From the NCBI RefSeq assembly GCF_002355475.1, contig NZ_AP014862.1, forward strand, positions 2,666,001 to 2,730,000: a stretch of DNA of 64,000 nt. The letters run 5' to 3'. The translations under genes were made by a program, and so were the position numbers. This document shows positions 5,063 to 22,165 of the stretch, one piece after another. The notes under the pieces were generated by a model, which was not told the origin of the DNA, did not search any database, and saw only the letters and a list, made by a program, of their open reading frames with translations. The first letter of the stretch is position 1. Every line of letters starts with the position of its first letter. This stretch comes from Pseudomonas furukawaii (lineage in GTDB: Bacteria > Pseudomonadota > Gammaproteobacteria > Pseudomonadales > Pseudomonadaceae).

Positions 5063-5083
5063 GCTGTACCTTTTCCACGAATC

Positions 5084-5112
5084 GGGGCAGCGCACCCACG
5101 GCGCGCTGCCCC
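5084..5112 (-). terminator. hairpin closing cassette A
   Basis: GGGGCAGCGC and GCGCTGCCCC form a 10-bp perfect stem just downstream of the stop of the 86-residue gene (minus strand). No clear T-run follows, so it may end transcription poorly or protect the 3' end. The same hairpin occurs at 7944-7973 in copy B. Confidence 0.5.
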
Positions 5113-5126
5113 AAGCCCATCGCGCT

Positions 5127-5387
5127 CTAATGTTGCTCGTACAGCCCGCTGGGCAACCTCGCCAGGTCCACCAGCTTGAGGAAATCATCGTGGTTGCTGC
5201 GTGACAGGTGGATCATGGCATCCATCAGGGCGCCCTCCTGGTGATCGTTCAGGTAGGGCCCCAGATCGCTGGGGCGCCGGTCGGCGTTCTTCAGCAGCAG
5301 CTCGGCCAGCACCTGCGTGGTGTAGAGCCGGTCTTCCAGGCGACGCACCAGCTGCCTGATCCGCCGCTCTTCGTGGACGTCGCTCAT
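5127..5387 (-). CDS. small conserved protein partnered with BRO-N protein, copy A
   Basis: An 86-residue, charged protein starting MSDVHEERRIRQLVRRLEDR. Start ATG 5387 overlaps the stop of the BRO-N gene (ATGA) and has GGAGG about 8 bases upstream inside that gene. It looks all-helical: the first 40 residues are Arg/Leu-rich with a possible coiled coil, followed by a segment with HLSRSNHDDFLKLVDLARL. Copy B encodes an almost identical protein (about three changes), while copy C lacks the gene. No family is recognised. The strict overlap suggests co-translation and perhaps a physical partnership with the BRO-N protein. Confidence 0.7.
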   Translation of the reverse strand: MSDVHEERRIRQLVRRLEDRLYTTQVLAELLLKNADRRPSDLGPYLNDHQEGALMDAMIHLSRSNHDDFLKLVDLARLPSGLYEQH

Positions 5388-5851
5388 GGCTGCGCCTCCT
5401 GACTCTCCTTCATCACCAGCGGCAAGTCCCGCCAGGCCACCCAGACTTCCCGCTGCCACTTCAGCACGTTGATCGGATGGTCATCCCAATGGAGAAAGGC
5501 CCGGCGCGGCTCGGCGCCGGGGTCGCGGTGGTAGTCGTGCAGGGTCGGCACCAGCACCTCCGCCAGCCAACGGCCGATGGCGTCGTGCTCGACGAGGCCG
5601 AAGCGGAACAGCGCCTTGTAAGCCCCGGCATCGCTGATGGCATCCACCTCTTCGTGGAAGCTGTCGGTGTAGCTGAGCAGGACCTGGCGCTTCTCGAAGG
5701 GCTCCAGTGCCTGGAGCATCTCGCGGGCGTCATCGATGCCAATCAGCCGGGCGTAATCCCGGGCGACGAACCAGGGCTGGTTGTCGGCCATCAGGCAGCG
5801 CAGGCGTTGGCCGTGGTTGTAGAAAACGATGGGGGTGAAAGTGTTTTGCAT
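5384..5851 (-). CDS. BRO-N (phage antirepressor-type) domain protein, copy A
   Basis: A 155-residue protein whose first 100 residues look like a BRO-N domain: FYNHGQRLRCLMADNQPWFVARDYARLIG, then ALEPFEKRQVLL and a VDAISDAGAYKALFRF segment. In phage antirepressors this domain binds DNA. The C-terminal third (about 110-155, rich in Trp, His and Pro, with FLHWDDHPINVLKWQREVWVAW) replaces the usual Ant/KilA-C domain and is not recognised. Start ATG 5851 has AAGGAG nine bases upstream. Stop and next start overlap. A host-encoded DNA-binding regulator is inferred, not shown. Confidence 0.75.
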   Translation of the reverse strand: MQNTFTPIVFYNHGQRLRCLMADNQPWFVARDYARLIGIDDAREMLQALEPFEKRQVLLSYTDSFHEEVDAISDAGAYKALFRFGLVEHDAIGRWLAEVLVPTLHDYHRDPGAEPRRAFLHWDDHPINVLKWQREVWVAWRDLPLVMKESQEAQP

Positions 5852-5892
5852 GGGTATGGCTCCTTGTCTGAAAGACACCTCGCCACACGTCG

Positions 5893-6119
5893 CTGTCAAT
5901 CGAGGGGTGGCGAATCGCACGGGGTTGACAGACCGGGACAAGGACCGGCAGACCGCAGGGGTCTCCCCGCGCGATCCGCCATAGAGCGGTGCAGCCAAAA
6001 AGCTGCATGCGTGCAAATGCCTGCAAGAAACATCCGCCGTTTCTCGCATGCACCAAGCGGCGCAATCGCGCCTTGTCTGCGGGCTGTCAAACCCGGCCAC
6101 GGGATTGACCGTGGCCGGG
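5893..6119 (-). other. structured leader upstream of BRO-N gene, copy A
   Basis: Conserved non-coding stretch between the BRO-N start and the cassette edge. On the plus strand it contains, in order: CTGTCAA...TTGACAG (5893-5931), a second pair around GGCAGACCGC/GCGATCCGCC, the self-complementary GCGAGAAACGG/TTTCTTGC-type arms, GGCGCAATCGCGCC (about 6059-6072) and a GC-rich stem CCCGGCCACGG/CCGTGGCCGGG (6092-6118). Arms are preserved in copies B and C while bases between them vary, which suggests folding in RNA or DNA. It might be a long structured 5' UTR, an ncRNA or a recombination site. No RNA family is recognised. Confidence 0.5.
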
Positions 6120-6253
6120 GCAGGATAGGGATAGCGAAGGGGGAGGGCAAGGGGGCGTTGTTGATCCCGTTCGGTTGTTGTTTCAAGGGCGGCAGATGGC
6201 TTCAGCATGTTTCAGATCGGGTTGCAATGACCGACCGGAAGTGAAGGCCAGGC

Positions 6254-6862
6254 CTAGGAGCGAATTGGAAGCAGAGCCCCGAAGATCATGAAGAAACCAC
6301 CGCAGGTTTGATTGAAGCGTCGACCGGTTTTCGCAAGCCAGGGCCTGACCCGATGCGCCCCGCTGGCAACGATGTACTCCACGAGGAACTCCACCACCGC
6401 GTAGGTCAGAGCGATCACCACCGTCTGGATGAAGAGGTTCCTGCCGGCATCGAGAAAGGGTGGGATGAACGCGGTGTAGAGCAGCAGTGCCTTGGGATTT
6501 GACAGTGCCGATAGCAGCCCTTGCCTGAACAACGACCACTTCGTCGACGCGGCGGTTTGCACGGAATCAAGCGACAGGGGCGTCGACCGCCACAGGCTGA
6601 TGCCGATCCAGATGAGATACAGCCCGCCGAGCACCTTCAATGCGGTGAATACGGTGACTGACGTCTTGATCAGGACTGCCAACCCGGTTGCGCAGAGGGA
6701 GATCATTGCAATGAACCCAAGAACGCCTCCAGAGATGGTGAAGAGCGTTTCCTTGCGTCCGTAGATCGCGCCGTGAGTCAGCACGAGCAGCGCATTGGGT
6801 CCGGGAACGACTGCCATGCCTAGGCAGGTCAGCAGATAAAGGAGCCAGGTATCGAAGGGCAT
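6254..6862 (-). CDS. LysE family translocator
   Basis: A 202-residue inner-membrane exporter of the LysE/RhtB family. The N-terminal signature LTCLGMAVVPGPNALLVLTHG (residues about 11-31) and the middle motif RQGLLSALSNPKALLLYTAFIPPFL are both clear, and six hydrophobic spans can be drawn. The start at 6862 has an AGGA ribosome site and gives the usual family length; the open frame continues upstream but without family similarity. It is divergent from a LysR regulator at 6983 with a palindromic operator between them, the standard LysE/LysG-type arrangement. The exported compound is probably an amino acid or related metabolite. The pair sits between direct cassettes A and B. Confidence 0.85.
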   Translation of the reverse strand: MPFDTWLLYLLTCLGMAVVPGPNALLVLTHGAIYGRKETLFTISGGVLGFIAMISLCATGLAVLIKTSVTVFTALKVLGGLYLIWIGISLWRSTPLSLDSVQTAASTKWSLFRQGLLSALSNPKALLLYTAFIPPFLDAGRNLFIQTVVIALTYAVVEFLVEYIVASGAHRVRPWLAKTGRRFNQTCGGFFMIFGALLPIRS

Positions 6863-6942
6863 GAAACAGTCCTGAAGAGCGGATTTCCTACGAATGATGA
6901 AGCTGGCATCTCTGCTCGAAAAGCACATAATCCAGAAGGCAA

Positions 6943-6961
6943 CTATTCGATTGTCGAATAG
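6943..6961. promoter_or_regulatory. LysR-type operator between lysE-like and lysR-like genes
   Basis: CTATTCGATTGTCGAATAG is a perfect 8-bp inverted repeat with a 3-bp centre. It contains ATTCGATTGTCGAAT, a T-N11-A dyad as bound by LysR regulators. It lies 22 bp upstream of the LysR ATG and 81 bp upstream of the LysE start, suited to autorepression and activation of the exporter. Confidence 0.65.
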
Positions 6962-6982
6962 GTGGCCGGGGGAACTGTGAAC

Positions 6983-7846
6983 ATGGGTGAGCTGCAGCTC
7001 GATTGGCTCAAATGCTTCGTGGCGGTAGTCGACAACGGGTCGTTGTCGAGTGCCGCGCTGGACGTGCATCGCTCGCAGTCCGCAGTCAGCATGCAACTGA
7101 AGAAGCTTGAAGCGGCTGTCGGGCGGTCATTGCTCGACCGTGGGCCGAGGCATATGCAGCTGACCGTCGATGGACAGGTTCTCCTCGGCTATGCGAGGCG
7201 GATGCTGGCCCTTTATGCCGAAACACAAGCGGCGTTCGACGGTGAAGAACTCACCGGCCTGATTCGACTGGGTGTGGCTGAAGACTACGCGGCGAAGTAC
7301 CTGACCCCGGCGCTCAAGCGCTTTACGCCCCGCCATGGTGGCGTCGATATAGAGCTCACCTGTGAGCAGTCCGTGAACCTCATCCCCCTTGTTACCCGGG
7401 GCGAGTTGGACCTTGCGCTGGTATCCAGGGACCAGGCGCGGCGAGGGACCTTGCTTTTCCAGGAGCCGATGGTGTGGGTAGGCTCGCCCCAATTCGAGCT
7501 TTGGCGCAAAGACCCATTGCCAGTTGCCGTGTACGACGCGCAGAACCTCGCCAGGCGCATCGCATTGAATGCCCTGGCGCTGCAGGGCCGCGAGTACAAG
7601 GTGGTCTATCACAGCTCCAGCCTTGCCGGTCAGATTGCGGCCGTCGAAAGCGGCTTGGCCATAGCCGCACTCACTCAGTGCTGCACGCCCCAGCACTTGC
7701 AGATCCTGGGCAAGGAGCAGGGTTTAAGTCCCATGGTTCCCGCAGAAGTCGTGCTGTACCGAAGCCGCGCCTCGATCGGCTCGAAGCCGGTGGATCATCT
7801 GCGGAGGTTCTTGATCAACGAGCTTGGATCGTCTGCCCTGAGATAG
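6983..7846 (+). CDS. LysR family transcriptional regulator (of the LysE exporter)
   Basis: A 287-residue LysR protein with an N-terminal winged helix-turn-helix (residues about 3-62; SLSSAALDVHRSQSAVSMQLKKLEAAVG) and a periplasmic-binding-like effector domain with GLIRLGVAEDYA and the late motif AAVESGLAIAAL. I chose ATG 6983, preceded by GGGGGAA; a GTG at 6962 in frame overlaps the operator. Divergence from the LysE gene and the dyad at 6943-6961 imply that it controls the exporter. A C-C pair (QCCTPQ) in the effector domain is unusual but of unknown meaning. Confidence 0.85.
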   Translation: MGELQLDWLKCFVAVVDNGSLSSAALDVHRSQSAVSMQLKKLEAAVGRSLLDRGPRHMQLTVDGQVLLGYARRMLALYAETQAAFDGEELTGLIRLGVAEDYAAKYLTPALKRFTPRHGGVDIELTCEQSVNLIPLVTRGELDLALVSRDQARRGTLLFQEPMVWVGSPQFELWRKDPLPVAVYDAQNLARRIALNALALQGREYKVVYHSSSLAGQIAAVESGLAIAALTQCCTPQHLQILGKEQGLSPMVPAEVVLYRSRASIGSKPVDHLRRFLINELGSSALR

Positions 7847-7943
7847 CTCCCTGCCGATCATTCATATCGGGCCGATGGCTGTAGCTGTTCGTGGCGAAGC
7901 GCGGTCGGTTGGCAGCCAATCAATCTGTACCTTTTCCACGAAT

Positions 7944-7973
7944 CGGGGCAGCGCACCCAAGGCGCGCTGCCCC
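7944..7973 (-). terminator. hairpin closing cassette B
   Basis: GGGGCAGCGC and GCGCTGCCCC form the same 10-bp stem as in cassette A, directly after the stop of the small gene. It has no T-run. Confidence 0.5.
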
Positions 7974-7987
7974 AAACCCACCGCGCT

Positions 7988-8248
7988 CTAACGTTGCTCG
8001 TACAGCCCGCTGGGCAACCGCGTCAGGTCCACCAGCTTGAGGAAATCATCGTGGTTGCTGCGTGACAGGTGGATCACCGCATCCATCAGGGCGCCCTCCT
8101 GGTGATCGTTCAGGTAGGGTCCCAGGTCGCTGGGGCGCCGGTCGGCGTTCTTCAGCAGCAGCTCGGCCAGCACCTGCGTGGTGTAGAGCCGGTCTTCCAG
8201 GCGACGCACCAGCTGCCTGATCCGCCGCTCTTCGTGGACGTCGCTCAT
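7988..8248 (-). CDS. small conserved protein partnered with BRO-N protein, copy B
   Basis: An 86-residue near-identical copy of the 5127-5387 protein. The visible changes are Met-Val in LMDAVIHL, Ala-Thr in LVDLTRL and the last residue Arg for His. Start ATG 8248 overlaps the BRO-N stop and keeps the same GGAGG site. The strong protein conservation between copies suggests either recent duplication or selection. Function unknown. Confidence 0.7.
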   Translation of the reverse strand: MSDVHEERRIRQLVRRLEDRLYTTQVLAELLLKNADRRPSDLGPYLNDHQEGALMDAVIHLSRSNHDDFLKLVDLTRLPSGLYEQR

Positions 8249-8712
8249 GGCTGCGCCTCCTGACTCTCCTTCATCAGCAGCGGCAAGTCCCGCCAGGCCA
8301 CCCAGACTTCCCGCTGCCACTTCAGCACGTTGATCGGATGGTCATCCCAATGGAGAAAGGCCCGGCGCGGCTCGGCGCCGGGGTCGCGGTGGTAGTCGTG
8401 CAGGGTCGGCACCAGCACCTCCGCCAGCCAGCGGCCGATGGCGTCGTGCTCCACGAGGCCGAAGCGAAATAGCGCCTTGTAGGCCCCGGCATCGCTGATG
8501 GCATCCACCTCTTCGTGGAAGCTGTCGGTGTAGCGGAGCAGGACCTGGCGCTTCTCGAAGGGCTCCAGCGCCTGGAGCATCTCGCGGGCGTCATCGACGC
8601 CAATCAGCCGGGCGTAATCCCGGGCGACGAACCAGGGCTGGTTGTCGGCCATCAGGCAGCGCAGGCGTTGGCCGTGGTTGTAGAAAACGATGGGGGAATA
8701 GGCGTTTTGCAT
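8245..8712 (-). CDS. BRO-N domain protein, copy B
   Basis: A 155-residue paralogue of the 5384-5851 product. It differs at only a few positions: MQNAYSP for MQNTFTP, GVDDAR for GIDDAR, LLRYTD for LLSYTD. Domain layout is the same: BRO-N over residues 1 to about 100 and an unrecognised Trp/His-rich tail. Most base changes from copy A are synonymous. The next gene overlaps by 4 bp. Together with copy A it brackets the LysE/LysR pair in direct orientation. Confidence 0.75.
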   Translation of the reverse strand: MQNAYSPIVFYNHGQRLRCLMADNQPWFVARDYARLIGVDDAREMLQALEPFEKRQVLLRYTDSFHEEVDAISDAGAYKALFRFGLVEHDAIGRWLAEVLVPTLHDYHRDPGAEPRRAFLHWDDHPINVLKWQREVWVAWRDLPLLMKESQEAQP

Positions 8713-8754
8713 GGCTAAGAGTCCTTTGCTAAGTCCATCCACTGCCACATTCCG

Positions 8755-9228
8755 CTGTCAATCGAAGGGTGGCAGACCGCGCAGGGTTGACAGACCGGGC
8801 AAAGGAGCCGGCAGATCGCAAGGATCTCCCTACGCGATCTGCCATAAAGCAGAGCAGTCCTGAAAAACTGCATGCGAACAAAGGCCTGCAAGAAGCGTTC
8901 GCCGCTTCTCGCATGCACCTTGCGGCGCAATCGCGCCTTTGCTACGGGCTGTCAAACCCGGCCACGGGATTGACCGTGGCCGGGGCAGGATAGGGACAGC
9001 GAAGGGGGAGGGCAAGGGGACGGGGGGTGCGGGTCGTCGATTCTGGGGAGGGTTGGCGGGGGCCGGTTAAACCGTCCGCAACAGGACACAGATGCCATTG
9101 CGTTGCTTCGGACGATTCCCGGTCTTTCTCGCAACCATCCTCTTCGGGGCCGAGTGCCCGCCAGCCACGTCAACCGAATCGGCCAAAGCAGTCACCCTGC
9201 GCGGCAATTTACGCTGCTGAATCCTCGA
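8755..9228. other. structured leader of cassette B, then gene-free flank
   Basis: 8755-8985 is the same hairpin series as in copy A: CTGTCAA/TTGACAG at 8755-8793, the GGCAGATCGC/GCGATCTGCC pair (here perfect, about 8810-8844), the GCGAGAAG/CTTCTTGC arms, GGCGCAATCGCGCC, and CCCGGCCACGG/CCGTGGCCGGG ending near 8985. From 9021 to the end of ktrA at 9229 I see no gene, RNA or repeat beyond the fading cassette edge. Confidence 0.5.
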
Positions 9229-9921
9229 TCACTTACGCCCAGCGAATTTCTGAATCCGGTGAGTCGACCCGGACACGATGAGCAAATCGCCCGGCAGGAC
9301 CAAGGTTTCGGGCTTGGCGTGTTGGAAGTCTTCATTGGCACGCTTGAGGCCAACGACCGTTACACCGAACTCTCCACGCACGTTGGACTCGGCCAGTGTG
9401 TGATTGTGGGTGGCGGTAGGGGCATGAATCTTCGCGATGCCGAATCCGTCGTCGAATTCGATGAAGTCCACCATTCGCCCGGAGATGAGGTGTGCCACGC
9501 GCTCACCCATGTCCGCTTCCGGATGGACGACGTGGTGGGCGCCGATCCGCTGCGCGATATGCCCATGCTCGGTGGTCAACGCCTTGACCCAGATATCCTT
9601 TATGCCCAGTTCGGTCAGCGCCATGATGGTCATCAGGCTCGCGGCCAGGTCAGTGCCTATTCCCACGATTGCGTGGGCGAAGTCGGCAACGCCCAGCTGG
9701 CGCAGCACCATGGTGTTGGTGGAGTCGGCTTGCACCGCGTGGGTCAGCAGATCGGCCCAGGCGTGCACCGACTCGGCGTCCTTGTCGATACCCATCACGT
9801 CATGCCCCAGACGCATCAGCGATTGGGCCACCGAACTGCCAAAGCGCCCCAGGCCGATCACGACGACGCTGTCGCCTTTGGAGAAGGCGAACTGTTCCGA
9901 AAATAGCAATTTAGCCAACAA
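9229..9921 (-). CDS. ktrA: KtrA/TrkA-type potassium channel gating protein
   Basis: A 230-residue cytosolic RCK protein. It has an N-terminal Rossmann (TrkA-N) domain with the nucleotide-binding glycine pattern VVVIGLGRFGSSVAQ (about residues 19-33) and acidic strand end GIDKDAE, followed by a TrkA-C domain from about 150 (HNHTLAESNVRGEFGVTVVG to LIVSG). KtrA rings bind ATP/ADP and gate the KtrB channel. The start overlaps the end of ktrB by 11 bp, so the two are coexpressed and form the K+ uptake complex. Confidence 0.88.
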   Translation of the reverse strand: MLAKLLFSEQFAFSKGDSVVVIGLGRFGSSVAQSLMRLGHDVMGIDKDAESVHAWADLLTHAVQADSTNTMVLRQLGVADFAHAIVGIGTDLAASLMTIMALTELGIKDIWVKALTTEHGHIAQRIGAHHVVHPEADMGERVAHLISGRMVDFIEFDDGFGIAKIHAPTATHNHTLAESNVRGEFGVTVVGLKRANEDFQHAKPETLVLPGDLLIVSGSTHRIQKFAGRK

Positions 9922-11239
9922 TTGGATGCTCCTCTGGATAGCGGTAGGACATGCGGTGCTCGCCCAGCGCCAGTGATGCGGCCAGCGTAATGGTCCCGAC
10001 TCGGCCGACGTACATCAGTACCGTCAACATGAGCTGGCTCGATTCGGGCAGGCTGGCGGTGATTCCGGTGGAGAGCCCTACGGTGCCGAACGCGGAGATC
10101 ACTTCGAAGATGACCTGATCGGTCGGGATATCCGTGTCGCGCAGAATCACCAAAGTGCCCAGTACGATCATCGTGCTTCCCAGCACGAGCACGGTAATGG
10201 CCTGGCGCTGCGCCGCACCGCCAACGCGTCGCCCGAACGCCTCGCTGTCCTGGCGTCCGCGTATCTCCGCGATGACCAGCAAGGCCAGGATGGCGATGGT
10301 GCCTACTTTCACACCGCCCGCTGTTCCCGCGCTGCCTCCGCCAACGAACATCAGGAAGTAGTGCAGGGCCCAGCTCTCGTGCGTCAGTGCGCCGATGTCG
10401 ATCGAGTTGAATCCTGCCGTACGCGCGGAAACCGACGCGAAGGCCGCCGAGAGCAGCTTGTCCGGCAGCGACATGGTTCCCAGCGTGCCCGGGTTGGACC
10501 ATTCGAATACCAGCAGGCTGGCGAAGCCGCCAAAGAGCAACAGCGCGGTCCCCGACAGGGTGAGCTTGGTGTGCAGCGACCAATGGCGGGGGTCGCTGAT
10601 CTTGCGCCGGAGGTCGTTCAGCACGGGAAAGCCGATACCTCCAATGACGATCGCCGCCATGACCGGAAGCAGTATCAGCGCATCGGTGGCGTAACCCATC
10701 AAGTTATCGGGGTAGATCGAGAAGCCGGCGTTGTTGAAGGCCGAGACAGAATGGAACAGACCGCTCCACGCTGCCTCGCCCCAAGGCTGGCCATAGGCGA
10801 AGTGCAGTCTGAGGGTCAGCAAGCCAGCTACCAGCAGCTCCATGACAAAGGTCACCAACAGCACGACCTTGGCCACGCTGACGACATCACCCATCCCCAG
10901 GGAGCGCGACTCGCTCTGGGCGATCATCCGGGTCCGAAGTCGTAGCGAGCTGTTGACCAGCAGACCCAGCAGGGTCGCGACCGTCATGATTCCGAAACCG
11001 CCCAGCTGAAACAGCAGCAGAATCACCACCTGGCCAAAGGTCGACCAATAGGTGCCGGTGTCCACTGTCGCCAGACCGGTCACGCACACGGCAGAAACCG
11101 CAGTGAAGAAGGCGGTTATCCAGGGAGCGGAAATACCCTCGGCATTCGACACCGGAAGCATCAGGAGGCCGGTCCCCATCAGTATCACGGCGAGGAAAAT
11201 CAGGGCCACTGCCCTGTTGGGGTGAAGCAGCGTTCTCAT
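9911..11239 (-). CDS. ktrB: KtrB/TrkH-type potassium channel subunit
   Basis: A 442-residue membrane protein with the four-fold M1-P-M2 repeat of the Trk/Ktr/HKT family. Four pore loops are visible: VCVTGL, SAFNNAGFS, SARTAGFNS and SAFGTVGLSTG, each giving the single filter glycine. It transports K+ (often Na+-coupled) with KtrA encoded next. I place the start at ATG 11239 (MRTLLHPNRAV); an in-frame TTG at 11302 would add 21 non-conserved residues and neither has a strong ribosome site. Confidence 0.88.
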   Translation of the reverse strand: MRTLLHPNRAVALIFLAVILMGTGLLMLPVSNAEGISAPWITAFFTAVSAVCVTGLATVDTGTYWSTFGQVVILLLFQLGGFGIMTVATLLGLLVNSSLRLRTRMIAQSESRSLGMGDVVSVAKVVLLVTFVMELLVAGLLTLRLHFAYGQPWGEAAWSGLFHSVSAFNNAGFSIYPDNLMGYATDALILLPVMAAIVIGGIGFPVLNDLRRKISDPRHWSLHTKLTLSGTALLLFGGFASLLVFEWSNPGTLGTMSLPDKLLSAAFASVSARTAGFNSIDIGALTHESWALHYFLMFVGGGSAGTAGGVKVGTIAILALLVIAEIRGRQDSEAFGRRVGGAAQRQAITVLVLGSTMIVLGTLVILRDTDIPTDQVIFEVISAFGTVGLSTGITASLPESSQLMLTVLMYVGRVGTITLAASLALGEHRMSYRYPEEHPIVG

Positions 11240-11440
11240 GTGGGAGTCGTCGGCTTGAACGGGGGGGCTGGATGTGGGGTTTCGCTCATGGCCATTACTC
11301 AATGCTTGTCTGGCAAGGCATGCCGGCCCATCGGATGCGGCGCTGCACGATACCGCAAGGAGTCAGCAGATCAGGTCCCCAAACAGCGAAAATTTACGAA
11401 TTCTTAACGCCAAGGAAGTGGAGCAGGTTCCACAAGGACA

Positions 11441-11507
11441 GGGACAGCGAAGGGGGAGGGCAAGGGGACGGGGTGTCGATTCCGGGGAGGGCGGGTTGGC
11501 GTCGCTC
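11441..11507 (-). repeat. relic of a BRO-N cassette edge (copy D)
   Basis: GGGACAGCGAAGGGGGAGGG followed by CAAGGGGACGGGGTGTCGAT and TCYGGGGAGGG matches the right edge of cassette B (8993 onward) almost base for base, and those of A and C less fully. The genes and hairpins are missing. It marks either a former cassette or the flank where cassettes insert. Confidence 0.6.
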
Positions 11508-11529
11508 TATCGTGCGAACGATCTTCAAA

Positions 11530-11552
11530 CGTTACTCGTTATCATTTATATT
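11530..11552 (+). promoter_or_regulatory. Fur-box-like site before the sigma factor gene
   Basis: GTTACTCGTTATCATTTAT matches the 19-bp Fur consensus at about 11 positions, better in its right half (TTATCATT). FecI-type sigma genes are normally Fur-repressed, so position and composition agree, but the match is degenerate. Confidence 0.4.
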
Positions 11553-11586
11553 CGCGCGCTCTCCACTACCTACCGCGCACGCAATC

Positions 11587-12111
11587 TTGCCTCACGCCCC
11601 GGCCAAACCGTCTCTGATCACGACCCTAGCCCGACACTACGACGAGCTGGTGGACTCTGTACGTCGCCGTTTCGGCGACCGTCAGGCGGCGCGCGAGGTG
11701 GTGCACGATGTCTGCGTGCAGTTGCTGGAGTCGCCCGAAAAGGAAGCTGTACGTGTGCCCTTGGCGCTGCTTCACAAGATCACCCATGATCGCGCCATCA
11801 GCCATTACCGCAGTGAGCGCCGCCGGCAAGCCTGGGTGGATGACCAGGCCGAACTGACCGAGGTGCTCTGTAATGCCCCGAGCCCGGAGCGCCAGCATGA
11901 CGCCGCTGAAGAGCTGGAGCGCTTATGCGCTGCCATCACCGAACTGCCACCACGCTGCCAGCAGGTTTTCGTCATGCACAAGATTCATGAGCTGCCGCAG
12001 CAGGAGGTCGCCGAGCGACTGGGGATTTCGGTAAAGGCCGTGGAGAAACACCTCAAGGTCGGCATGGCCAAGTGCTTGGCCCGCCTGGGCTATCAAGAGG
12101 CCTGCGCATGA
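11587..12111 (+). CDS. FecI-like ECF sigma factor
   Basis: About 174 residues. Region 2 carries LARHYDELVDSVRRRFGD...AAREVVHDV and region 4 carries LPPRCQQVFVMHKIHELPQQ...VAERLGISVKAVEKHLKVGM, the FecI-family iron-starvation sigma signature. No ATG exists between the Fur-like box and region 2; TTG 11587 gives the normal family length but lacks a good ribosome site, so the start is uncertain. The fecR-like gene starts within its stop codon (ATGA), and the receptor gene follows. It would direct RNA polymerase to the receptor promoter when the signal arrives. Confidence 0.85.
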   Translation: MPHAPAKPSLITTLARHYDELVDSVRRRFGDRQAAREVVHDVCVQLLESPEKEAVRVPLALLHKITHDRAISHYRSERRRQAWVDDQAELTEVLCNAPSPERQHDAAEELERLCAAITELPPRCQQVFVMHKIHELPQQEVAERLGISVKAVEKHLKVGMAKCLARLGYQEACA

Positions 12112-12929: not shown

Positions 12930-13008
12930 TTCCATCCCGAGGTAGGGTTTTCGCTCCGCTCTGGCGGCTTATTCCAGGAACGCCTCACATCTTCCCGGAG
13001 CCTTACCA

Positions 13009-15435: not shown

Positions 15436-15540
15436 GTCTCAGGCGCACAGGGACGTGTGCAGGGGGCACGGCGAGAAGCTTTAGTTCATCAAATTGAAAT
15501 GACGGATTTTGGGCGGGGGGTGTGGCGTAACGGGCAGGAG

Positions 15541-15592
15541 GCGGCCAAATGCGGACAGTAGGCCAGTAAATAAATCTGCCCCCTTTCCGCGC
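15541..15592 (+). repeat. left inverted repeat of the ATPase islet
   Basis: The sequence GCGGACAGTAGGCCAGTAAA followed by TAAATCTGCCCCCTTTCCGC recurs in inverted form at 17240-17291 (about 70% identical by eye) and in direct, shorter form at 17328-17368. The AAATCTGTCCCCTTTT-type word is common in Pseudomonas intergenic repeats. Confidence 0.55.
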
Positions 15593-15664
15593 TTTACGCT
15601 CTTGAAAAACCCGACTATGTGCCAGACCATACGAGCCGATTTGCACAGTTAGCATGGAGCGAAA

Positions 15665-17191
15665 ATGTCCCTCATCTACAAGCTAGGCCTCAGCGGAAAT
15701 CCATTTGAAAATTACACCGCAGAGACTGAACCAGACATCGGCGAATATGCGGTTCGGCCACCATATCTTGAGTCGATTTCTGCCAGAGCCCGAAAGCTTA
15801 GTTCGTTCATCCTGTTCGGAGATCGTGGCGCGGGGAAAAGCGCAACACGCCTAACTGTCTTCAAGGAAATCTGGGGAAGCAAGGACAGCGACAAACCCTT
15901 TATTGTTAATCTTACAGATTTCAGTAGCATTATTGAGATATTTAAAAAAGACAAGCTATCCGAAAAAGAAATTATCTTCCTCGCTGCATACAATACGATT
16001 GAGCAGATGCTTGCATGGCTAGCATCCCTGAATGAGAGTGATCGCTCTGCCAAACTTAGCTCCTTAACTAAGGAGCAGCGATCGCTTATCATGGCCTTAG
16101 TTCAAGGATTCTATCTGTCTAAGGAGGAGATGGACCGAGAGCACTCAACTGCCGAAACGTTTCGTCTGCTAGATAGTACATGGCAGACTAAGGCCGTTGT
16201 TTGGACAACTCAACGTGGCGAGACCATAAGCAAAATCATAGCTGAAGCAGTGGCCTTATTTAGTCGACGAGTTACTGAAGACGACAGCCTCGAGATTTCC
16301 GAGCCTGCGGAAAAACTTCTGAAGAGTTTGATTGGTGACTCTCCAAATGCACCGCGAGCAATTTTGCATAAGCTTGTGGAACTTGCTCAAATTTTTGGAT
16401 TCACCGGCGTATGCATGCTGGTTGATAAACTCGATGAAACAGCTGCAACCATGAAGTCTGCCGAGTCTACAGCCAAGCTTATCCATCCGCTTCTTTCACA
16501 CATTCAGCTTCTTGAAGTAGTAGGTTTTTCCTGGATATTTTTCATCTGGAGAAACGTAACCACTCACTTCAACGGGAAGCATGAAGTAAGGCTCGACAAA
16601 ATCCCTTCATCCAATATCGTCTGGGGTCAAATCCAGCTCCGAGAAATGCTCGATAAAAGAGTAGAGTTTTTCTCCAGTGGCGCCCTCAATTTTTCACAGC
16701 TTTTTGAACCGGAAACAGATATGGAGCAGGTTTATAACTTGCTTCTCACTCACTCGATAAACTCCCCGCGCGAGCTTATCAAAATTATTGATATCATTAT
16801 CCGCGAGCACGACATAAACGAGCCAGACACCTCACTAACGCTCAACTCCGTCAATGCCGGCATCAACAAGTACTGCATCGAAACCATTGACACTTGGCAC
16901 GCTCCAAAAATCCTACAGCAAATTTATCGGCTAGGCAAAACACCATTCATAAATCAGGACGTTCAAACCACCTTCAAAATCGGTGATCAAGGAGCCAGAG
17001 TTAAAATTAAGACATGGGAAGATGCAGGCCTAGTCAAACAAAGCGGAACTTTGCCTAGCTCCGCTGGTGGTAAACAGGTCTATCGGTACGTGATATCTGA
17101 TCCTCGTGTTATAAGAATCATTGAAAACACTCTTGATCCCTCTGTAGGCATTGAGTTTGATGAGTTCGCTGAAGAGCCTTCCGACGATTAA
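15665..17191 (+). CDS. P-loop ATPase, Sll1717-like, candidate defence gene
   Basis: A 508-residue protein with Walker A GDRGAGKS (residues 52-59), a likely Walker B VCMLVDKLDE (about 249-258) followed by a helical region, and a winged-helix-like C-terminus (about 425-480, KTPFINQDVQTTFKIGDQGA). The opening GLSGNPFENYTAE and the FGDRGAGKSATR pattern recall the Sll1717-family P-loop ATPases, a little-studied STAND/KAP-like group often found in defence islands. Base composition is clearly lower in GC than both neighbours, and the gene sits alone between inverted repeats, so transfer is likely. A ribosome site (GGAG, 15656) precedes ATG. Defence function is inference only. Confidence 0.75.
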   Translation: MSLIYKLGLSGNPFENYTAETEPDIGEYAVRPPYLESISARARKLSSFILFGDRGAGKSATRLTVFKEIWGSKDSDKPFIVNLTDFSSIIEIFKKDKLSEKEIIFLAAYNTIEQMLAWLASLNESDRSAKLSSLTKEQRSLIMALVQGFYLSKEEMDREHSTAETFRLLDSTWQTKAVVWTTQRGETISKIIAEAVALFSRRVTEDDSLEISEPAEKLLKSLIGDSPNAPRAILHKLVELAQIFGFTGVCMLVDKLDETAATMKSAESTAKLIHPLLSHIQLLEVVGFSWIFFIWRNVTTHFNGKHEVRLDKIPSSNIVWGQIQLREMLDKRVEFFSSGALNFSQLFEPETDMEQVYNLLLTHSINSPRELIKIIDIIIREHDINEPDTSLTLNSVNAGINKYCIETIDTWHAPKILQQIYRLGKTPFINQDVQTTFKIGDQGARVKIKTWEDAGLVKQSGTLPSSAGGKQVYRYVISDPRVIRIIENTLDPSVGIEFDEFAEEPSDD

Positions 17192-17239
17192 GCCTACACC
17201 GTCCAGAGCTGATCCACCCTGGTGGTGAAGCTTTGGCCC

Positions 17240-17291
17240 GCGCAGAAAATGGGACAGATTTATTTATTCGTGACTGTCCGTTTCTGGCCGG
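17240..17291 (-). repeat. right inverted repeat of the ATPase islet
   Basis: Reverse complement of this stretch (CGGCCAGAAACGGACAGTCA, then AATAAATAAATCTGTCCCAT) aligns with 15541-15592, so the ATPase gene with about 70 bp on each side is bracketed by inverted repeats. Confidence 0.55.
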
Positions 17292-17327
17292 CTTCTACCA
17301 GTAGAGGTCAGCAGAACCCCGCCACGA

Positions 17328-17368
17328 GCGGACATTAGCGTAGAAAAAGAATCTGTCCCCTTTTCCGC
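17328..17368 (+). repeat. third copy of the islet repeat
   Basis: GCGGACATTAGCGTAGAAAA followed by AGAATCTGTCCCCTTTTCCGC is a direct, partial copy of the left repeat, 37 bp beyond the right inverted copy. Confidence 0.5.
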
Positions 17369-17412
17369 AAAGGGCGAAGTCGGCACCGTCCCAATCCACG
17401 CAGCCATGCGGC

Positions 17413-18279
17413 TCAGCCCTCGCTGACCAATTGCAGGAATGCCATGAGAATCCGCCGAGAACTCTGCGCCCGGAGGCAGGCCAGGGTTTCGGTGAAATGA
17501 CTCCGGCAGTCGATGATGGGCAGGGCGCGTAGTCGAGAGTCGAATCCCAGCTCGGCTGCGGAGATCACCCCTACGCCAATACCGAATGCCACGGCCTCCA
17601 TCGCGCCCTCGCGTCCCTCTACCTCGATGGCCTTGCGGATGGTGAAGCCGGCCGCCGCCATTTCTTCCTCCAGGGTCTGGCGTGTGACCGAGCCTTGCTC
17701 ACGCAGCACCAGCGGCGTGCCGTCGAGGTCCGCGAGGCGAATGGACTTGCGTCGTGCCCAGGGGTGGTCCTTGGCGACGAAGGCGATCATGGGATCGCGG
17801 CGCAGCGGCACTGAATGCAGGCGCTCGTCGTCGATGCTGCGGCCCAGCAGTGCAAGGTCCGCGCTGTGGCTGAACAGCCGCTGCAGGACCACGTCCGTGT
17901 TGGCTGACTCGATCCTCACATCGATGCCCGGGTAGCGCGCGCAGAAACGTGCGACATAGGGCAGCACGTGAACCGGAGCGTCGACCGCGAGGACCAGGCT
18001 GCCGGTCGTGAGATCGCGATAGTCCATCAGCAGTTCGTGGGCATCGATACTGATGTCGAAGAGCCGCCGCGTCAGTCCCAGCAGCCGCTCGCCCACTTCG
18101 GTCAGCCGCACCGCGCGCTTGTCCCGGTGAAAGACCATCACGCCGTAGTACTCCTCGAGCTTGCGCACCTGGTCGGAAACCGCTGGCTGCGAGAGGCAGA
18201 GCCGCTCCGCCGCGCGGGTGAAGCTGCCGGCCTCGGCGACGGCATGGAAGGCTCGTAATTGCGAATGGGATATCTGCAT
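17413..18279 (-). CDS. LysR family regulator, possibly of aminoethylphosphonate use
   Basis: A 288-residue LysR protein with a strongly conserved helix-turn-helix (HSQLRAFHAVAEAGSFTRAA, LSQPAVSDQVRKLEEYYG) and effector domain with LVLAVDAPVHVLPYVARF and the late EAVAFGIGVGVISAAE. The N-terminal wording resembles the LysR subgroup that accompanies 2-aminoethylphosphonate catabolic genes; this is from memory of the family and not certain. It is divergent from an organophosphate-type transporter with a LysR dyad between them, so it most likely controls the transporter and FAD oxidase genes. Confidence 0.8.
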   Translation of the reverse strand: MQISHSQLRAFHAVAEAGSFTRAAERLCLSQPAVSDQVRKLEEYYGVMVFHRDKRAVRLTEVGERLLGLTRRLFDISIDAHELLMDYRDLTTGSLVLAVDAPVHVLPYVARFCARYPGIDVRIESANTDVVLQRLFSHSADLALLGRSIDDERLHSVPLRRDPMIAFVAKDHPWARRKSIRLADLDGTPLVLREQGSVTRQTLEEEMAAAGFTIRKAIEVEGREGAMEAVAFGIGVGVISAAELGFDSRLRALPIIDCRSHFTETLACLRAQSSRRILMAFLQLVSEG

Positions 18280-18294
18280 GGCGATACCGTTTGA

Positions 18295-18309
18295 ATAAGT
18301 TGAACTTAT
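18295..18309. promoter_or_regulatory. LysR-type dyad between regulator and transporter
   Basis: ATAAGTTGAACTTAT is a perfect 7+1+7 palindrome of the T-N11-A type, starting 16 bp upstream of the LysR start codon and about 175 bp from the transporter start. It would serve autorepression; the long distance to the transporter suggests further sites in 18310-18484. Confidence 0.65.
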
Positions 18310-18484
18310 GTGAGGATACGATAAATCGATTTTGTTTATTCAAGACGAATTGGTCTGATAACCCCCGCAACCTGATTCACCGCAGTCTGACCGGCGCCAG
18401 GTTTCAAACCGGCGCTGGAGTGCCTTCCAAAACAACAAACAGGCGCCTGGCAAGGGCGCCAGCACACCTGAGGTCAGAATCACC

Positions 18485-19807
18485 ATGAATGAACATGCCG
18501 CCGTGGGTACCGGAGGTTCTCTGAGCCGCTGGCGCCTGCAGATATTCGCCGTCACCTGGCTGGCTTACGCCGCCTTCTACTTCACTCGCAAGGCCTTTTC
18601 AGTTGCCAAGCTCGGCATTGCCGAAGACCCCGGCTTCATGCTCGACAAGATGGATATGGCGAATCTCGATGCCCTCTACCTGGCCGCCTACGCGGTGGGG
18701 CAGTTTGCCTTCGGCGTGCTGGCCGACCGTTTCGGACCTCGCGTCGTCGTGCTGGGCGGCATGGTCGTGTCGGCGCTGGCTGCGATGCTGATGGGGACCT
18801 TTGCCACCTTGCCGATCTTCGCGACCTGCATGCTGGTCCAGGGACTTGCGCAATCCACCGGCTGGTCGGGGCTGTGCAAGAACCTCGGCAGCTTCTTTCC
18901 CGGTGAGATGCGCGGGCGGGTGATGGGCTTCTGGAGCACCTGCTATGCCTTCGGCGGTTTGGTGGCCTCGCCCTTCGCGGGCTGGTGGGCCTATACGGTC
19001 TTTCAGAGCTGGCAGGCGGCGTTCTACTCCGGCGCGGGCGTGGTGGCCGGCGTGGCGCTGCTGTTCTTCCTTTTCCAGCGCAACCGCCCGGAAGATGTGG
19101 GCCTGCCTCCGGTAGAGGTCGAGCCGGATGACGGCGATGAGGGGCGATCCAATGCAACCCCGCTGCGCGATGTACTGCGCAATCGCACGGTGCTGGCCCT
19201 TGGAGCGGCCTACTTCCTGCTCAAGCCGGCGCGCTACGCCATTCTTTTCTGGGGACCGGTGATCGTGTATGAGCGCATGCCGTCGGTCGGCAAGGTGGGG
19301 GCGGCGGTCATTCCTACCGCCTTCGAGCTGGCGGGGCTGCTCGGGCCGATTCTCATCGGCCTGGCCTCCGACAAGCTGTTCGGTGCGCGACGCATGCCCG
19401 CCTGCGTCATCAGCCTGCTGGTGCTGACGGTGGCCCTGGCACTGTTCCTCCCGGCACTGCGGACCGGCAGCGCAATGATCGTGATGGCCCTGCTGTTCGT
19501 CATGGGCCTGACCCTGTACGGGCCGGACTCGATGATCTGTGGCGCGGCGGCCATCGATTTCGGCACCAGCCGAGCGGCGGGAACGGCGTCCGGTTTCGTC
19601 AATGGATGTGGCTCGGTTGGCGCCATCCTGGGCGGGCTGCTGCCGGGTTATCTCGATACCTACAGCGTGTTCACGGTGTTCGTGGGCTGCTCCCTGCTGT
19701 CCTGCCTGATCCTGCTGCCGTATTGGAACAGTCGCCCCGTCGTCTTCGGGCCGGGACGTTTTCCGATTCCCAATCGCCGCGTGCTGCACAAGCCGCTGCG
19801 TGCCTGA
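18485..19807 (+). CDS. MFS transporter of the organophosphate:phosphate antiporter (OPA) type
   Basis: A 440-residue, 12-span major facilitator. The N-terminal YAAFYFTRKAFSVAK matches the conserved substrate-binding stretch of GlpT/UhpT-type proteins, and DRFGPRVVVLGGMV is the loop 2-3 motif. The central loop (about 205-235) is acidic. OPA members exchange phosphorylated compounds for phosphate, so an organophosphate or organophosphonate is the likely cargo. The FAD oxidoreductase gene follows after 53 bp in the same direction. Confidence 0.82.
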   Translation: MNEHAAVGTGGSLSRWRLQIFAVTWLAYAAFYFTRKAFSVAKLGIAEDPGFMLDKMDMANLDALYLAAYAVGQFAFGVLADRFGPRVVVLGGMVVSALAAMLMGTFATLPIFATCMLVQGLAQSTGWSGLCKNLGSFFPGEMRGRVMGFWSTCYAFGGLVASPFAGWWAYTVFQSWQAAFYSGAGVVAGVALLFFLFQRNRPEDVGLPPVEVEPDDGDEGRSNATPLRDVLRNRTVLALGAAYFLLKPARYAILFWGPVIVYERMPSVGKVGAAVIPTAFELAGLLGPILIGLASDKLFGARRMPACVISLLVLTVALALFLPALRTGSAMIVMALLFVMGLTLYGPDSMICGAAAIDFGTSRAAGTASGFVNGCGSVGAILGGLLPGYLDTYSVFTVFVGCSLLSCLILLPYWNSRPVVFGPGRFPIPNRRVLHKPLRA

Positions 19808-19860
19808 TCCGTCGCCGCGCGTCACTGACCTGACCGATCCACTTCATGGAGATCACATCG

Positions 19861-21252
19861 ATGAGACCCTTCTGGCTCGACGAGGCCCTCAAGGCCCAGC
19901 CCTCGGAGCCCAGCGCGTCGCTGCAGAACGAGACCCGCGCCGATGTCTGCATCGTGGGCGGCGGCTACACCGGCTTGTGGACGGCGATCATGCTCAAGGA
20001 GCGGAACCCTGAGCTGGACGTCGTCATTATCGAAGCCGATATCTGCGGCGCGGGCGCCAGTGGCCGCAATGGCGGTTGTGCGCTGTCCTGGTCCGCCAAG
20101 TACTTCACCCTGGAACGGCTGTTCGGACGCGAAGAGGCTGTGCGCCTGGTCCGCGCTTCGGAGCAGAGCCTCTACGCCATCGGTGATTTCTGCAGAAAGT
20201 ACGGCGTCGATGCCGAGTACCGCCTCGATGGCACGCTCTACACCGCGACGAACCGGGCGCAGCAGGGCTCCACCGACAGCGTGATCGCGGCATTGGAGCG
20301 CAACGGCATCAACTCTTTCGTCCGTTGCCCCCTGCCCGAGTTGCAGCGCAGGGCGGGTTCGACCCGACACATCGAGGGCTGGTTCTCGCCGGCGGCTGCG
20401 AGCGTACAACCGGGCAAGCTGGTGCGCGGCTTGCGCCGTGTGGCACTGGAGCTGGGGGTTCGCCTGTATGAGGGCACACCGATGACCGGGCTGGAGGAGG
20501 GCAGACCTGCCGTGGTCACGACGGCGTTCGGGCGGGTAGTCGCCGATCGGGTGGTGTTGGCCATCAACGCCTGGATGGCACGGGCCTTCCCGCAGTTCGA
20601 ACGCACCGTGGCGATCGTCTCCAGCGACATGGTCATCACTGAACCACGCCCGGACCTGCTGCAGCGCATCGGCCTCACCAGTGGCGTGACGGTGCTCGAT
20701 TCGCGCATCTTCGTGCACTACTACCGCAACACCCCGGACGGCCGGATCATGCTGGGCAAAGGTGGCAACACCTTCGCCTTTGGCGGGCGCATCCTGCCGG
20801 TGTTCGACCAGCCTTCCCCTTACCAACCGCTTTTGCGCAGCACCCTGGAGGAGTTCTTCCCGGACTTCGCCGAGGTGGGCATCGCTGCGAGCTGGAACGG
20901 CCCTTCGGATCGCTCGGTCACCGGGCTGCCTTTCTTCGGCCGACTGGGGCGAAGCGACAACGTTTTCTATGGTTTCGGTTATTCGGGAAGCGGCGTCGGT
21001 CCCTGCCACATGGGTGGGCAGATCCTGTCGTCGCTGGTACTGGGACTGGACAACGCCTGGACTCGCTCGCCGCTGGTCCAGGGGCCGCTCGGCTACTTCC
21101 CGCCAGAGCCGATTCGCTATCTGGGATCGCTGATGGTGCGCAACGCCATCCGCCGCAAGGAGCGCGCCGAAGACCATGGCCGCCGCCCGCGTCGGATCGA
21201 CGTTCACTTGGCCAAGTTCGCAGCGGCTGCGGGCAAGGCGGATAAGGGCTAG
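19861..21252 (+). CDS. FAD-dependent amine/amino-acid oxidoreductase (DAO family)
   Basis: A 463-residue flavoprotein with the N-terminal dinucleotide fold (VCIVGGGYTGLWTAIMLKER, acidic EAD 20 residues later), the SGRNGGC loop and a C-terminal FAD closing motif (GFGYSGSGVGPCHMGGQI). ATG 19861 is chosen because GGAG lies nine bases upstream; ATG 19846 in frame has none. The enzyme resembles PuuB/gamma-glutamylputrescine-oxidase and the FAD enzymes that remove (N-alkyl)amines from aminophosphonates. With the OPA transporter upstream, oxidation of an imported aminophosphonate is a reasonable guess; the substrate remains unproven. Confidence 0.82.
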   Translation: MRPFWLDEALKAQPSEPSASLQNETRADVCIVGGGYTGLWTAIMLKERNPELDVVIIEADICGAGASGRNGGCALSWSAKYFTLERLFGREEAVRLVRASEQSLYAIGDFCRKYGVDAEYRLDGTLYTATNRAQQGSTDSVIAALERNGINSFVRCPLPELQRRAGSTRHIEGWFSPAAASVQPGKLVRGLRRVALELGVRLYEGTPMTGLEEGRPAVVTTAFGRVVADRVVLAINAWMARAFPQFERTVAIVSSDMVITEPRPDLLQRIGLTSGVTVLDSRIFVHYYRNTPDGRIMLGKGGNTFAFGGRILPVFDQPSPYQPLLRSTLEEFFPDFAEVGIAASWNGPSDRSVTGLPFFGRLGRSDNVFYGFGYSGSGVGPCHMGGQILSSLVLGLDNAWTRSPLVQGPLGYFPPEPIRYLGSLMVRNAIRRKERAEDHGRRPRRIDVHLAKFAAAAGKADKG

Positions 21253-21279
21253 TTAGCCGGCGAGCGGCGCCGTCGCGGC

Positions 21280-21309
21280 GGGGCGGGGCAGCGTGGGCTG
21301 TCCCGCCCC
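21280..21309. terminator. GC-rich hairpin between converging genes
   Basis: GGGGCGGGGCAG pairs with CTGTCCCGCCCC (11 of 12) around a 6-base loop, 27 bp after the FAD oxidoreductase stop and between it and the convergent BRO-N gene. There is no T-run, so it is probably a bidirectional or Rho-assisted stop. Confidence 0.5.
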
Positions 21310-21388
21310 GTCAGCGCTTATGGCCGCGCGTCAATCCTGGCTGGCAACCTTGCCAGCGTGAAGGGCAGGGTGGTCGCCCCGGCGCGGG

Positions 21389-21856
21389 TCATGACGACAG
21401 GTCTGCGGATTCCTGCATCAACACCGGCAGATCCCGCCAGGCCACCCAGACTTCCCGCTGCCACTTCACCACGTTGATCGGATGGTCATCCCAATGGAGA
21501 AAGGCCCGGCGCGGCTCGGCGCCGGGGTCGCGGTGGTAGTCGTGCAGGGTCGGCACCAGCACCTCCGCCAGCCAGCGGCCGATGGCGTCGTGCTCCACGA
21601 GGCCGAAGCGGAACAGCGCCTTGTAGGCCCCGGCATCGCTGATGGCATCCACCTCTTCGTGGAAGCTGTCGGTGTAGCGGAGCAGGACCTGGCGCTTCTC
21701 GAAGGGCTCCAGCGCCTGGAGCATCTCGCGGGCGTCATCGACGCCAATCAGCCGGGCGTAATCCCGGGCGACGAACCAGGGCTGGTTATCGGCCATCAGG
21801 CAGCGCAGGCGTTGGCCGTGGTTATAGAAAACGATGGGGGAATATGCATCTTGCAT
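21389..21856 (-). CDS. BRO-N domain protein, copy C
   Basis: A 155-residue third paralogue, near-identical to copies A and B up to about residue 145 and then ending differently (LPVLMQESADLSS for LPLxMKESQEAQP). The 86-residue partner gene of copies A and B is absent: similarity to them stops at the gene end. BRO-N domain over the first 100 residues, as in the other copies. It is followed by the hairpin at 21280-21309 in place of the cassette hairpin. The changed C-terminal end coincides with the loss of the overlapping partner, which may be compensation or just truncation. Confidence 0.75.
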   Translation of the reverse strand: MQDAYSPIVFYNHGQRLRCLMADNQPWFVARDYARLIGVDDAREMLQALEPFEKRQVLLRYTDSFHEEVDAISDAGAYKALFRFGLVEHDAIGRWLAEVLVPTLHDYHRDPGAEPRRAFLHWDDHPINVVKWQREVWVAWRDLPVLMQESADLSS

Positions 21857-22165
21857 GGTGGATCTCCTCTTGCGTTGGAAGACTCCACCACCCGCGCTGT
21901 CAATCGAGGGTGGCAGACCACGTGGGGTTGACAGACCGAGGCAAGAGGACCCGGCAGATCGCGAGGATCTCCCCACGCGATCTGCCATAAAGCGCAGCAG
22001 CTAAACGCTACATGCGAGCAAGGGCCTGCAAGAAACATTCGCCGTTTCTCGCATGCACCTTGAAGGGCGCAATCGCGCCTCTCGCATTCAGGCTGTCAAA
22101 CCCGGCCACGGGATTGACCGTGGCCGGGGCAGGATAGGGATAGCGGAGGGGGAGGGCAAGGGGAG
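21389..22165 (-). repeat. BRO-N cassette, copy C (without partner gene)
   Basis: Shares the BRO-N gene and the full hairpin leader with copies A and B, ending at the same purine-rich tract AGCGGAGGGGGAGGGCAAGG near 22165. The downstream third of the cassette (partner gene and closing hairpin) is missing. Confidence 0.75.

Follow-up and report, generated by a model that had tools for sequence, protein, structure and literature searches.

We analysed a 64,000-nucleotide stretch of the Pseudomonas furukawaii genome (contig NZ_AP014862.1, positions 2,666,001 to 2,730,000; hereafter the window), in which a cassette consisting of a structured leader and a small gene for a BRO-N-domain protein is present three times (copies A, B and C), always on the minus strand, as had been described beforehand from a sequence-only reading. 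In all likelihood, these are stand-alone C4 antisense-RNA cassettes of the immI kind known from phages P1 and P7, each silenced by its own C4 RNA, and they belong to a family of mutually different specificities. The module itself is already known; new here are the scale and the genetics of C4 cassettes, and a phage immunity switch seems to have been turned into a large bacterial gene family. What had been an unexplained repeat thus becomes an extensive natural collection of antisense RNAs and their targets, apparently orthogonal by sequence.

The C4 module in the leader

The leaders of all three copies matched two Rfam families above their cut-offs: C4 (RF01695; 71.6-74.5 bits, cut-off 45 bits) and, 5' of it, c4-a1b1 (RF03163; 54.5-55.1 bits, cut-off 46.7 bits), both of which have been catalogued as RNA motifs according to PMC2864571. 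The isrK model stayed below its cut-off of 50 bits (31.6-32.9 bits in the window) and overlapped the stretch between a1b1 and C4. The leader of copy A, the one copy folded, gave -141.9 kcal/mol (z -6.33), a value that none of 200 shuffles equalled.

To name the elements we used the letters of P1, in which b' is the P3 loop of C4 and a' the strand next to b'. In the annotated P1 record, the reference order is promoters, a1, b1, C4, a2, b2, icd, ant; a1 and a2 both read TTGACAG and pair with CTGTCAA of C4, while the partner of b2 is the P3 loop. Copies A, B and C show the element order of P1 immI and the same a' strand, CTGTCAA. In each of them a1 can pair with its own C4 over 7 bp, b1 over 7, 7 and 5 bp, a2 over 7 bp and b2 over 8-9 bp, and b2 lies at the ribosome-binding site (RBS) of the controlled gene. 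No icd was found between C4 and the gene in any of the three copies, where the BRO-N start follows directly 3' of b2.

Copy A is a long form (5064-6157) with leader, BRO-N gene, a second open reading frame (ORF2) and a closing hairpin. It has promoter-like boxes visible in the sequence (6122-6150: -35 TTGCCC at 6145-6150, a 17-bp spacer and -10 TATCCT at 6122-6127), followed by the c4-a1b1 target region (6076-6128, 55.1 bits), a1 TTGACAG (6084-6090), b1 GACAAGG (6071-6077), the C4 antisense RNA (5903-5986, 72.8 bits, with its b' loop at 5937-5944 and its a' strand at 5925-5931), a2 TTGACAG shortly 3' of C4 (5893-5899) and b2 GACAAGGA (5861-5868), which overlaps the Shine-Dalgarno sequence of BRO-N. 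The 155-residue BRO-N protein (5384-5851) and the 86-residue ORF2 (5127-5387) overlap by ATGA, and the closing hairpin lies at 5084-5112. Copy B, also a long form (7925-9020), has its promoter-like boxes at 8987-9015, the c4-a1b1 region at 8941-8993 (54.7 bits), C4 at 8765-8849 (74.5 bits; b' loop CTCCTTTGC, a' CTGTCAA), the 155-residue BRO-N protein at 8245-8712, the 86-residue ORF2, again in ATGA overlap, at 7988-8248 and, like copy A, a closing hairpin. Copy C is a short form without ORF2 (21389-22166), with boxes at 22131-22159, c4-a1b1 at 22085-22137 (54.5 bits), C4 at 21906-21992 (71.6 bits; b' loop GTCCTCTTGCC, a' CTGTCAA) and a BRO-N protein of 155 residues at 21389-21856. The boxes (TTGCCC, 17 bp, TATCCT) are identical in the three copies. 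The gene content given in the sequence-only reading, with an overlapping 86-residue gene in A and B and none in C, was thus confirmed.

Judged from its sequence, the leader is a C4/a1b1 antisense immunity module of the immI type. The earlier idea of a self-regulated layout, with an antirepressor-like gene behind a structured non-coding region, fits the PF02498 and C4/c4-a1b1 matches. The statement that no described element has this layout had to be given up, since the leader corresponds to the C4/a1b1 module of P1/P7 with the same order of parts. Compared on the P1 record, the cassette shares with immI the C4 family, the order promoter-a1-b1-C4-a2-b2-gene, the position of a2 shortly 3' of C4 and that of b2 just 5' of a start codon. 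In contrast to P1, which has icd, the cassette lacks it, and its b2 sits directly on the antirepressor-like gene's RBS; unlike immI of P1/P7, it has a short BRO-N protein without a recognised second domain, and it is chromosomal and present in many copies with differing codes. A leader RNA, a C4/CI-type RNA and an antirepressor gene also occur together in Gifsy-1 isrK-orf45-anrP, to be compared with P4 CI/seqA/seqC, and IsrK is described as a short leader RNA able to open such an operon (PMC4825925); in the window, however, the isrK score is sub-threshold and the cassette does not lie in a prophage.

A family of cassettes with different codes

The three copies are part of a far larger family than had been described. 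The 6.24-Mb genome holds 24 DNA matches to the unit (fragments counted), 25 C4 loci, all 25 above the cut-off, 19 c4-a1b1 matches (8 above the cut-off) and 19 Bro-N domain matches. Seventeen of the 25 C4 units drive a short BRO-N gene, and 15 of these have the C-terminal WQ part; one unit (4475780) is degenerate, and the seven remaining loci drive genes of other kinds, of which two encode phage-type antirepressors (a longer Ant with Bro-N, and P22_AR_N). C4 was present in all 18 genomes of the genus that we examined (3-25 each, 203 in total). From the 178 loci of the 17 genomes besides this one (3-21 each), 91 were picked by score rank for analysis and are mostly high-scoring. The genus set comprised 116 units, 65 of which have a BRO-N-like ORF according to a motif rule; the remaining 51 have other genes or broken genes or were missed by that rule. 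Across the order, a C4 match was found in 62 of 390 genomes with stricter filters and at most 11 candidates scored per genome, and none was found in 14 control genomes. In two genomes (G008 and G017; loci L135 and L138), tandem C4 pairs about 280 bp apart have different codes.

Each C4 tended to pair better with the targets of its own unit. For the 25 units of this genome, the mean pairing of the b' loop was 7.32 bp with its own RBS region and 4.33 bp with those of other units, and 7.00 versus 4.53 bp with the leader; the corresponding values for the a' strand were 6.16 versus 4.33 bp (RBS region) and 6.96 versus 4.84 bp (leader). None of 20000 permutations reached any of the four own-pairing means. 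Pairing of at least 6 bp at both a2 and b2 was found in 17 of 25 own combinations (8 fail) and in 6 of 600 non-own ones; at a1 and b1 together, the numbers were 18 of 25 and 16 of 600. Twenty-four of the 25 specificity loops differ, the sole pair sharing a loop (4271212 and 3217493) differs at a', and all 25 combinations of loop and a' are distinct. Outside the genus, 21 units of seven genomes gave 6.90 versus 4.63 and 7.71 versus 4.71 bp (own versus other; permutations 0 of 20000). In a genome of another genus (G268), with 24 C4 loci of which 7 are also among these 21 units, all 24 loops are unique, and a2 pairing of 7 bp or more occurs in 22 of 24 own and 29 of 552 non-own combinations. The first 120 of 214 viral units gave means of 7.28 (own) and 4.65 bp (other), in this case without a permutation test. 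These values suggest orthogonality of the cassettes at the sequence level: a C4 tends to pair within its own unit and not with the targets of neighbouring ones.

The codes and the genes evolved in opposite ways. In the window, the BRO-N genes are 93-97% identical between copies and the leaders 75-77%; the description of the copies as near-identical therefore applies to the gene and not to the leader. Within one genome, genes up to 98% identical bear different RNA codes, and between genomes identical codes are found on genes that are 60-99% identical. For instance, between units 2520330 and 2524112 there are differences at 12 of 483 sites in the gene, 6 of 10 in the loop and 46 of 251 in the remaining leader; for copies A and B, the corresponding counts are 16 of 483, 3 of 9 and 48 of 260. 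Conversely, three units of one code, each from another genome, show 22-103 differences over 482-483 gene sites and no difference over 30 specificity sites. The gene comparison covered 59 of the 65 BRO-N units, with an ORF of at least 140 residues read from the start nearest +50. Where their genes are at least 90% identical, none of the 8 same-genome pairs had a common loop (edit distance of at most 0.1), and 8 of the 12 pairs from different genomes did (Fisher p 0.005, pairs not independent). The leader was more alike than the gene in all 35 same-code BRO-N pairs between genomes and less alike in all 15 different-code pairs within one genome, the latter chosen for a gene identity of at least 0.83. 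Among the 116 genus units, no a'+b' type was shared in 599 same-genome pairs, compared with a mean of 6.94 for shuffled labels; 8 of 20000 label shuffles gave no shared pair. Any match in the short flanks tested was seen in 24 of 77 same-code pairs (110 of the 116 units were in this test); most same-code pairs thus occupy locations with no visible relationship, and different codes can occur at a single site. As judged from the ratio of non-synonymous to synonymous substitutions (0.02-0.51 in 12 pairs chosen by hand), the BRO-N genes are under purifying selection.

We propose that a single promoter drives the leader with a1 and b1, then C4, then a2 and b2 and finally the small gene, whose RBS carries b2. 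The C4 RNA would be excised from this same transcript by a putative processing step and would pair through its P3 loop (b') and the adjacent single strand (a') with a2/b2, blocking translation; its pairing with a1/b1 probably causes early termination, or else a short leader RNA may serve as a decoy. As C4 would block translation, the cassette should normally be silent and open only in a cell without a matching C4. Given the anatomy of the unit and the precedent of P1, the gene is likely to be silenced in this way by the C4 of its unit. A resident C4 would also silence any second cassette of the same code, in the manner of plasmid incompatibility or superinfection immunity, and the diversity of codes may have arisen for this reason. 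The proteins, in turn, would be exchangeable and homogenised within a genome, and the effector may act on repressors or regulators of prophages or of the host. We prefer such code-specific exclusion because it explains at once the distinct codes within a genome, the shared codes between genomes and the homogenised genes.

Several results weigh against this explanation. Four of the 17 BRO-N units (4018898, 5375797, 1858849 and 523921) pair weakly at a2/b2, over 3-5 bp each; their a1 pairs over 7-9 bp in all four and their b1 over 8-11 bp in three and over 5 bp in 1858849. Control in these units may be restricted to the leader, which would make them a separate class. A fifth BRO-N unit (1304412) has an a2 of 4 bp. 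Among the non-own combinations that exceed the threshold are those of A and B, in either direction; these two copies may therefore cross-talk. Outside the genus, a b' loop is common to 2 of 33 same-genome pairs (L343/L344 in G337 and L347/L348 in G361); a' separates the members of both pairs, in one case through a one-base difference in the listed strand. Kinship is not considered in the label shuffle, which covers 91 of the 178 loci of the other genus genomes. When the shuffle was restricted to BRO-N units, the result was weaker, with 1 shared b' loop versus 4.16 expected (1288 of 20000 shuffles) and no shared a'+b' type versus 3.54 expected (364 of 20000). Finally, gene conversion limited to the coding part could yield the inverse pattern of genes and codes without selection on specificity, and it is the main alternative for the origin of the diversity.

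Code-specific exclusion can be extended, more tentatively, to a view in which Pseudomonas chromosomes hold a library of at least 20 mutually orthogonal antisense-RNA locks on exchangeable small effectors, namely BRO-N in one genus and DUF6124/DUF3077 in another, with the type of lock as an incompatibility code, selection keeping the codes diverse and the effectors becoming homogenised inside each genome; we regard this as conceivable and somewhat doubtful. A cell would then have immunity against entering cassettes that share one of its own types; a cassette of a foreign type would fire its effector on entry. If true, phage immunity would have given rise to an RNA-coded self/non-self or invasion-control system. 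In any case, the question of why one genome keeps about 20 different copies of a phage immunity switch becomes testable, and the C4-target pairs may serve as ready-made orthogonal translation switches.

The BRO-N protein and ORF2

The Bro-N domain (PF02498, cut-off 25.6 bits) was recognised in copy A (32.1 bits, E 1.8e-7) and copy C (30.3 bits, E 6.7e-7), and the phrog profiles gave anti-repressor matches, whereas nothing near a cut-off was found in the NCBIfam search. The predicted structure is a soluble mixed fold (mean predicted local distance difference test score 87.1). Its best Foldseek match, 4ye7, the N-terminal domain of a granulovirus protein, was weak (E 0.016), and there was no Foldseek match at E 0.001 or better. 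The model has a second set of strands in the C-terminal part. By eye, this part (RRAFLHW...WQREVWVAWRDLP; 5384-5500 and 8245-8360) appears to repeat the N-terminal strands of the same protein (FYNHGQRLRCLMADNQPWFVARDY). The cassette protein shares the Bro-N domain and the phrog anti-repressor matches with the BRO family phage antirepressors, but it has 155 residues with a C-terminal beta part of its own, and its full-length type was seen almost only in Pseudomonas genomes. The protein may act on prophage repressors, on host regulators or as a toxin.

ORF2 had no Pfam or PADLOC match and one weak PHROG match (E 0.023); its relatives lie 3' of BRO-N in many units of other genomes. PADLOC assigned none of its defence families to two BRO-N proteins, ORF2, one DUF6124 protein and one DUF3077 protein, and on this basis we rejected a known anti-phage defence system.

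A known form of type I toxin-antitoxin families consists of multi-copy small proteins encoded on the chromosome, each under a cis antisense RNA with paralogue-specific pairing. The cassettes resemble them in that each of the paralogous small genes has a specific antisense RNA, and they could be an addiction system in which the small protein is harmful, C4 is the antitoxin and a cell that loses the cassette dies or is slowed. The lack of an analogue of P1 icd agrees with this, as the first gene may then be the effector, and the Gifsy-1 IsrK/AnrP cascade is described as leading to growth arrest through AntQ (PMC4825925). However, the model of BRO-N is a confident soluble mixed fold and not a small membrane peptide, the protein has no PADLOC match, and C4 is structured and lies within the transcript of its own target, without a separate antisense promoter. 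We consider a toxin-antitoxin function rather unlikely.

Location, mobility and other genes behind C4

It is quite improbable that the units are decayed prophage or satellite remnants that inherited their immunity differences from different phages. Viral contigs often contain C4 modules (one scan gave 104 stretches, the next at least 120), and the seven loci of this genome that drive other genes, with their two phage-type antirepressors, would fit such an origin. The short BRO-N protein, however, is nearly absent from viruses. Its alignments reach residue 143 or further in 40 of the 80 loci retained from genome contigs, and each of these 40 has Pseudomonas in its title (with P. resinovorans, P. 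otitidis, P. citronellolis and P. nitroreducens among them), whereas no match beyond residue 120 was found in 66 viral-contig loci. Its motif occurred in 1 of 214 viral C4 units (L491, on a viral contig of 37 kb that may be the host flank of a prophage), and at least 80% of it was covered in 2 of 146 matching phage records. None of the 33 searchable code types of BRO-N units (of 43) was found among the 145 viral codes listed. The surroundings in the window are also chromosomal: nine of ten chosen proteins between 1.7 and 27.1 kb belong to ordinary families (LysE, LysR, TrkH, TonB receptor, MFS, DAO, ketoacyl synthase, SnoaL and anthrone oxygenase), one had no match at 1e-5, and Pfam found no phage family among the ten, in agreement with the earlier remark that no phage gene is nearby. 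Together with the purifying selection on the genes, these results speak against remnants; a decayed ordinary prophage was rejected because of the chromosomal neighbours scanned in the window and the near absence of short BRO-N in viruses, and the copies did not turn out to be segments of a prophage, as the sequence-only reading had allowed.

C4 RNAs could also have been recruited as regulators that silence mRNAs of the host or of incoming phages in trans, with the cognate gene being secondary. According to PMC5320573, Acinetobacter baumannii AB5075 has 21 C4-like Group 1 small RNAs (sRNAs) with one variable loop, for which a trans-acting recruitment is proposed; they resemble the present family in the presence of many C4 RNAs with a variable loop in one genome. 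The b' loop is hypervariable here too, and C4 of P1/P7 is described as acting on the ant mRNA and as underlying heteroimmunity (PMC12197685). However, the loop covaries with the gene directly 3' of it, in this and in other genera, and the BRO-N unit codes match no viral code among those listed, which makes recruitment in trans highly improbable. While the targets of the AB5075 sRNAs are left open in the available sections of PMC5320573, here the cognate sites and the controlled gene were identified and the code covaries with them; the same approach could reveal the cognate targets of the C4-like sRNAs in A. baumannii.

C4 is not confined to BRO-N genes. Two genomes of another genus of the family, G268 and G307, have 24 and 22 C4 loci (among them L331-L340 and L351-L367). 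At 22 of the 24 and 20 of the 22 loci, respectively, C4 is followed on the same strand by a DUF6124 gene within 300 bp or a DUF3077 gene within 650 bp, limits that were chosen after examples had been seen. Conversely, 19 of 22 and 19 of 23 DUF6124 matches in these genomes, five sub-cut-off Pfam matches included in the DUF6124 counts, have a C4 on their 5' side, with a rough chance figure of 0.01 per genome. Like BRO-N, DUF6124 (PF19619) and DUF3077 (PF11275) are multi-copy small genes directly behind C4, but they are different protein families without a sequence link to ORF2; homology of ORF2 with DUF6124 was rejected (hhalign probability 1.3). A regulator is thereby suggested for two protein families of unknown function. 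The literature searched held nothing on DUF6124, and for DUF3077 a mutation in P. putida is mentioned in one paper. Judged by titles and abstract openings, with few subscription journals covered, none of the papers listed was recognisable as dealing with chromosomal C4 cassette families in Pseudomonas or with C4 and DUF6124.

One unit was shown by sequence comparison to be accessory. Unit 5096260, which sits between two convergent genes, is missing at all 10 sites that could be resolved in relatives, i.e. where both flanks align close to the unit (G002, G004, G005, G006, G010, G011, G012, G013, G015 and G016); the gap there is 133-336 bp, compared with 916-957 bp here. In three more relatives the right flank aligns further out and the gap of 194-481 bp is too small for the unit, and four could not be judged. 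Exact ends or a target duplication, which the sequence-only reading had hoped to obtain from such empty sites, were not found in the eight that were aligned, since the intergenic sequence is too variable for the joints to be placed. The signs of mobility and of gene conversion foreseen in that reading were present. For the A/B region and for unit 3217493, the flanks do not occur together in the relatives listed. An IS110-type transposase lies directly behind two units, about 0.8 kb 3' of C4 (L099, 4482152, plus strand; L103, 2524112, minus strand); their BRO-N genes are 97% identical, and PF01548 was found on the transposase copy tested, that of L103. Movement by an insertion sequence or an integron-like element, although compatible with the empty sites of 5096260 and with these two transposases, is hardly credible and was rejected, as the unit contains no transposase, as stated earlier, no target duplication or fixed ends were seen at the empty sites, and IS110 adjoins no more than 2 of this genome's 17 BRO-N units among the ORFs listed.

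Further pieces of the cassette and other repeats occur in the window. A solo promoter end of the unit (11435-11476, minus strand; 42 nt, 95% identical to copy B) lies 5' of the TrkH gene and is either a remnant or a captured promoter. A repeated piece, cctggattccatccaggctac, adjoins copy A (4926-5064), and many genomes of the genus have recurring short matches to positions 4999-5067. Two more repeats are found elsewhere in the window (60866-61325 and 43641-44838): direct repeats arrayed at intervals of about 78 bp, and a duplication of 613 bp.

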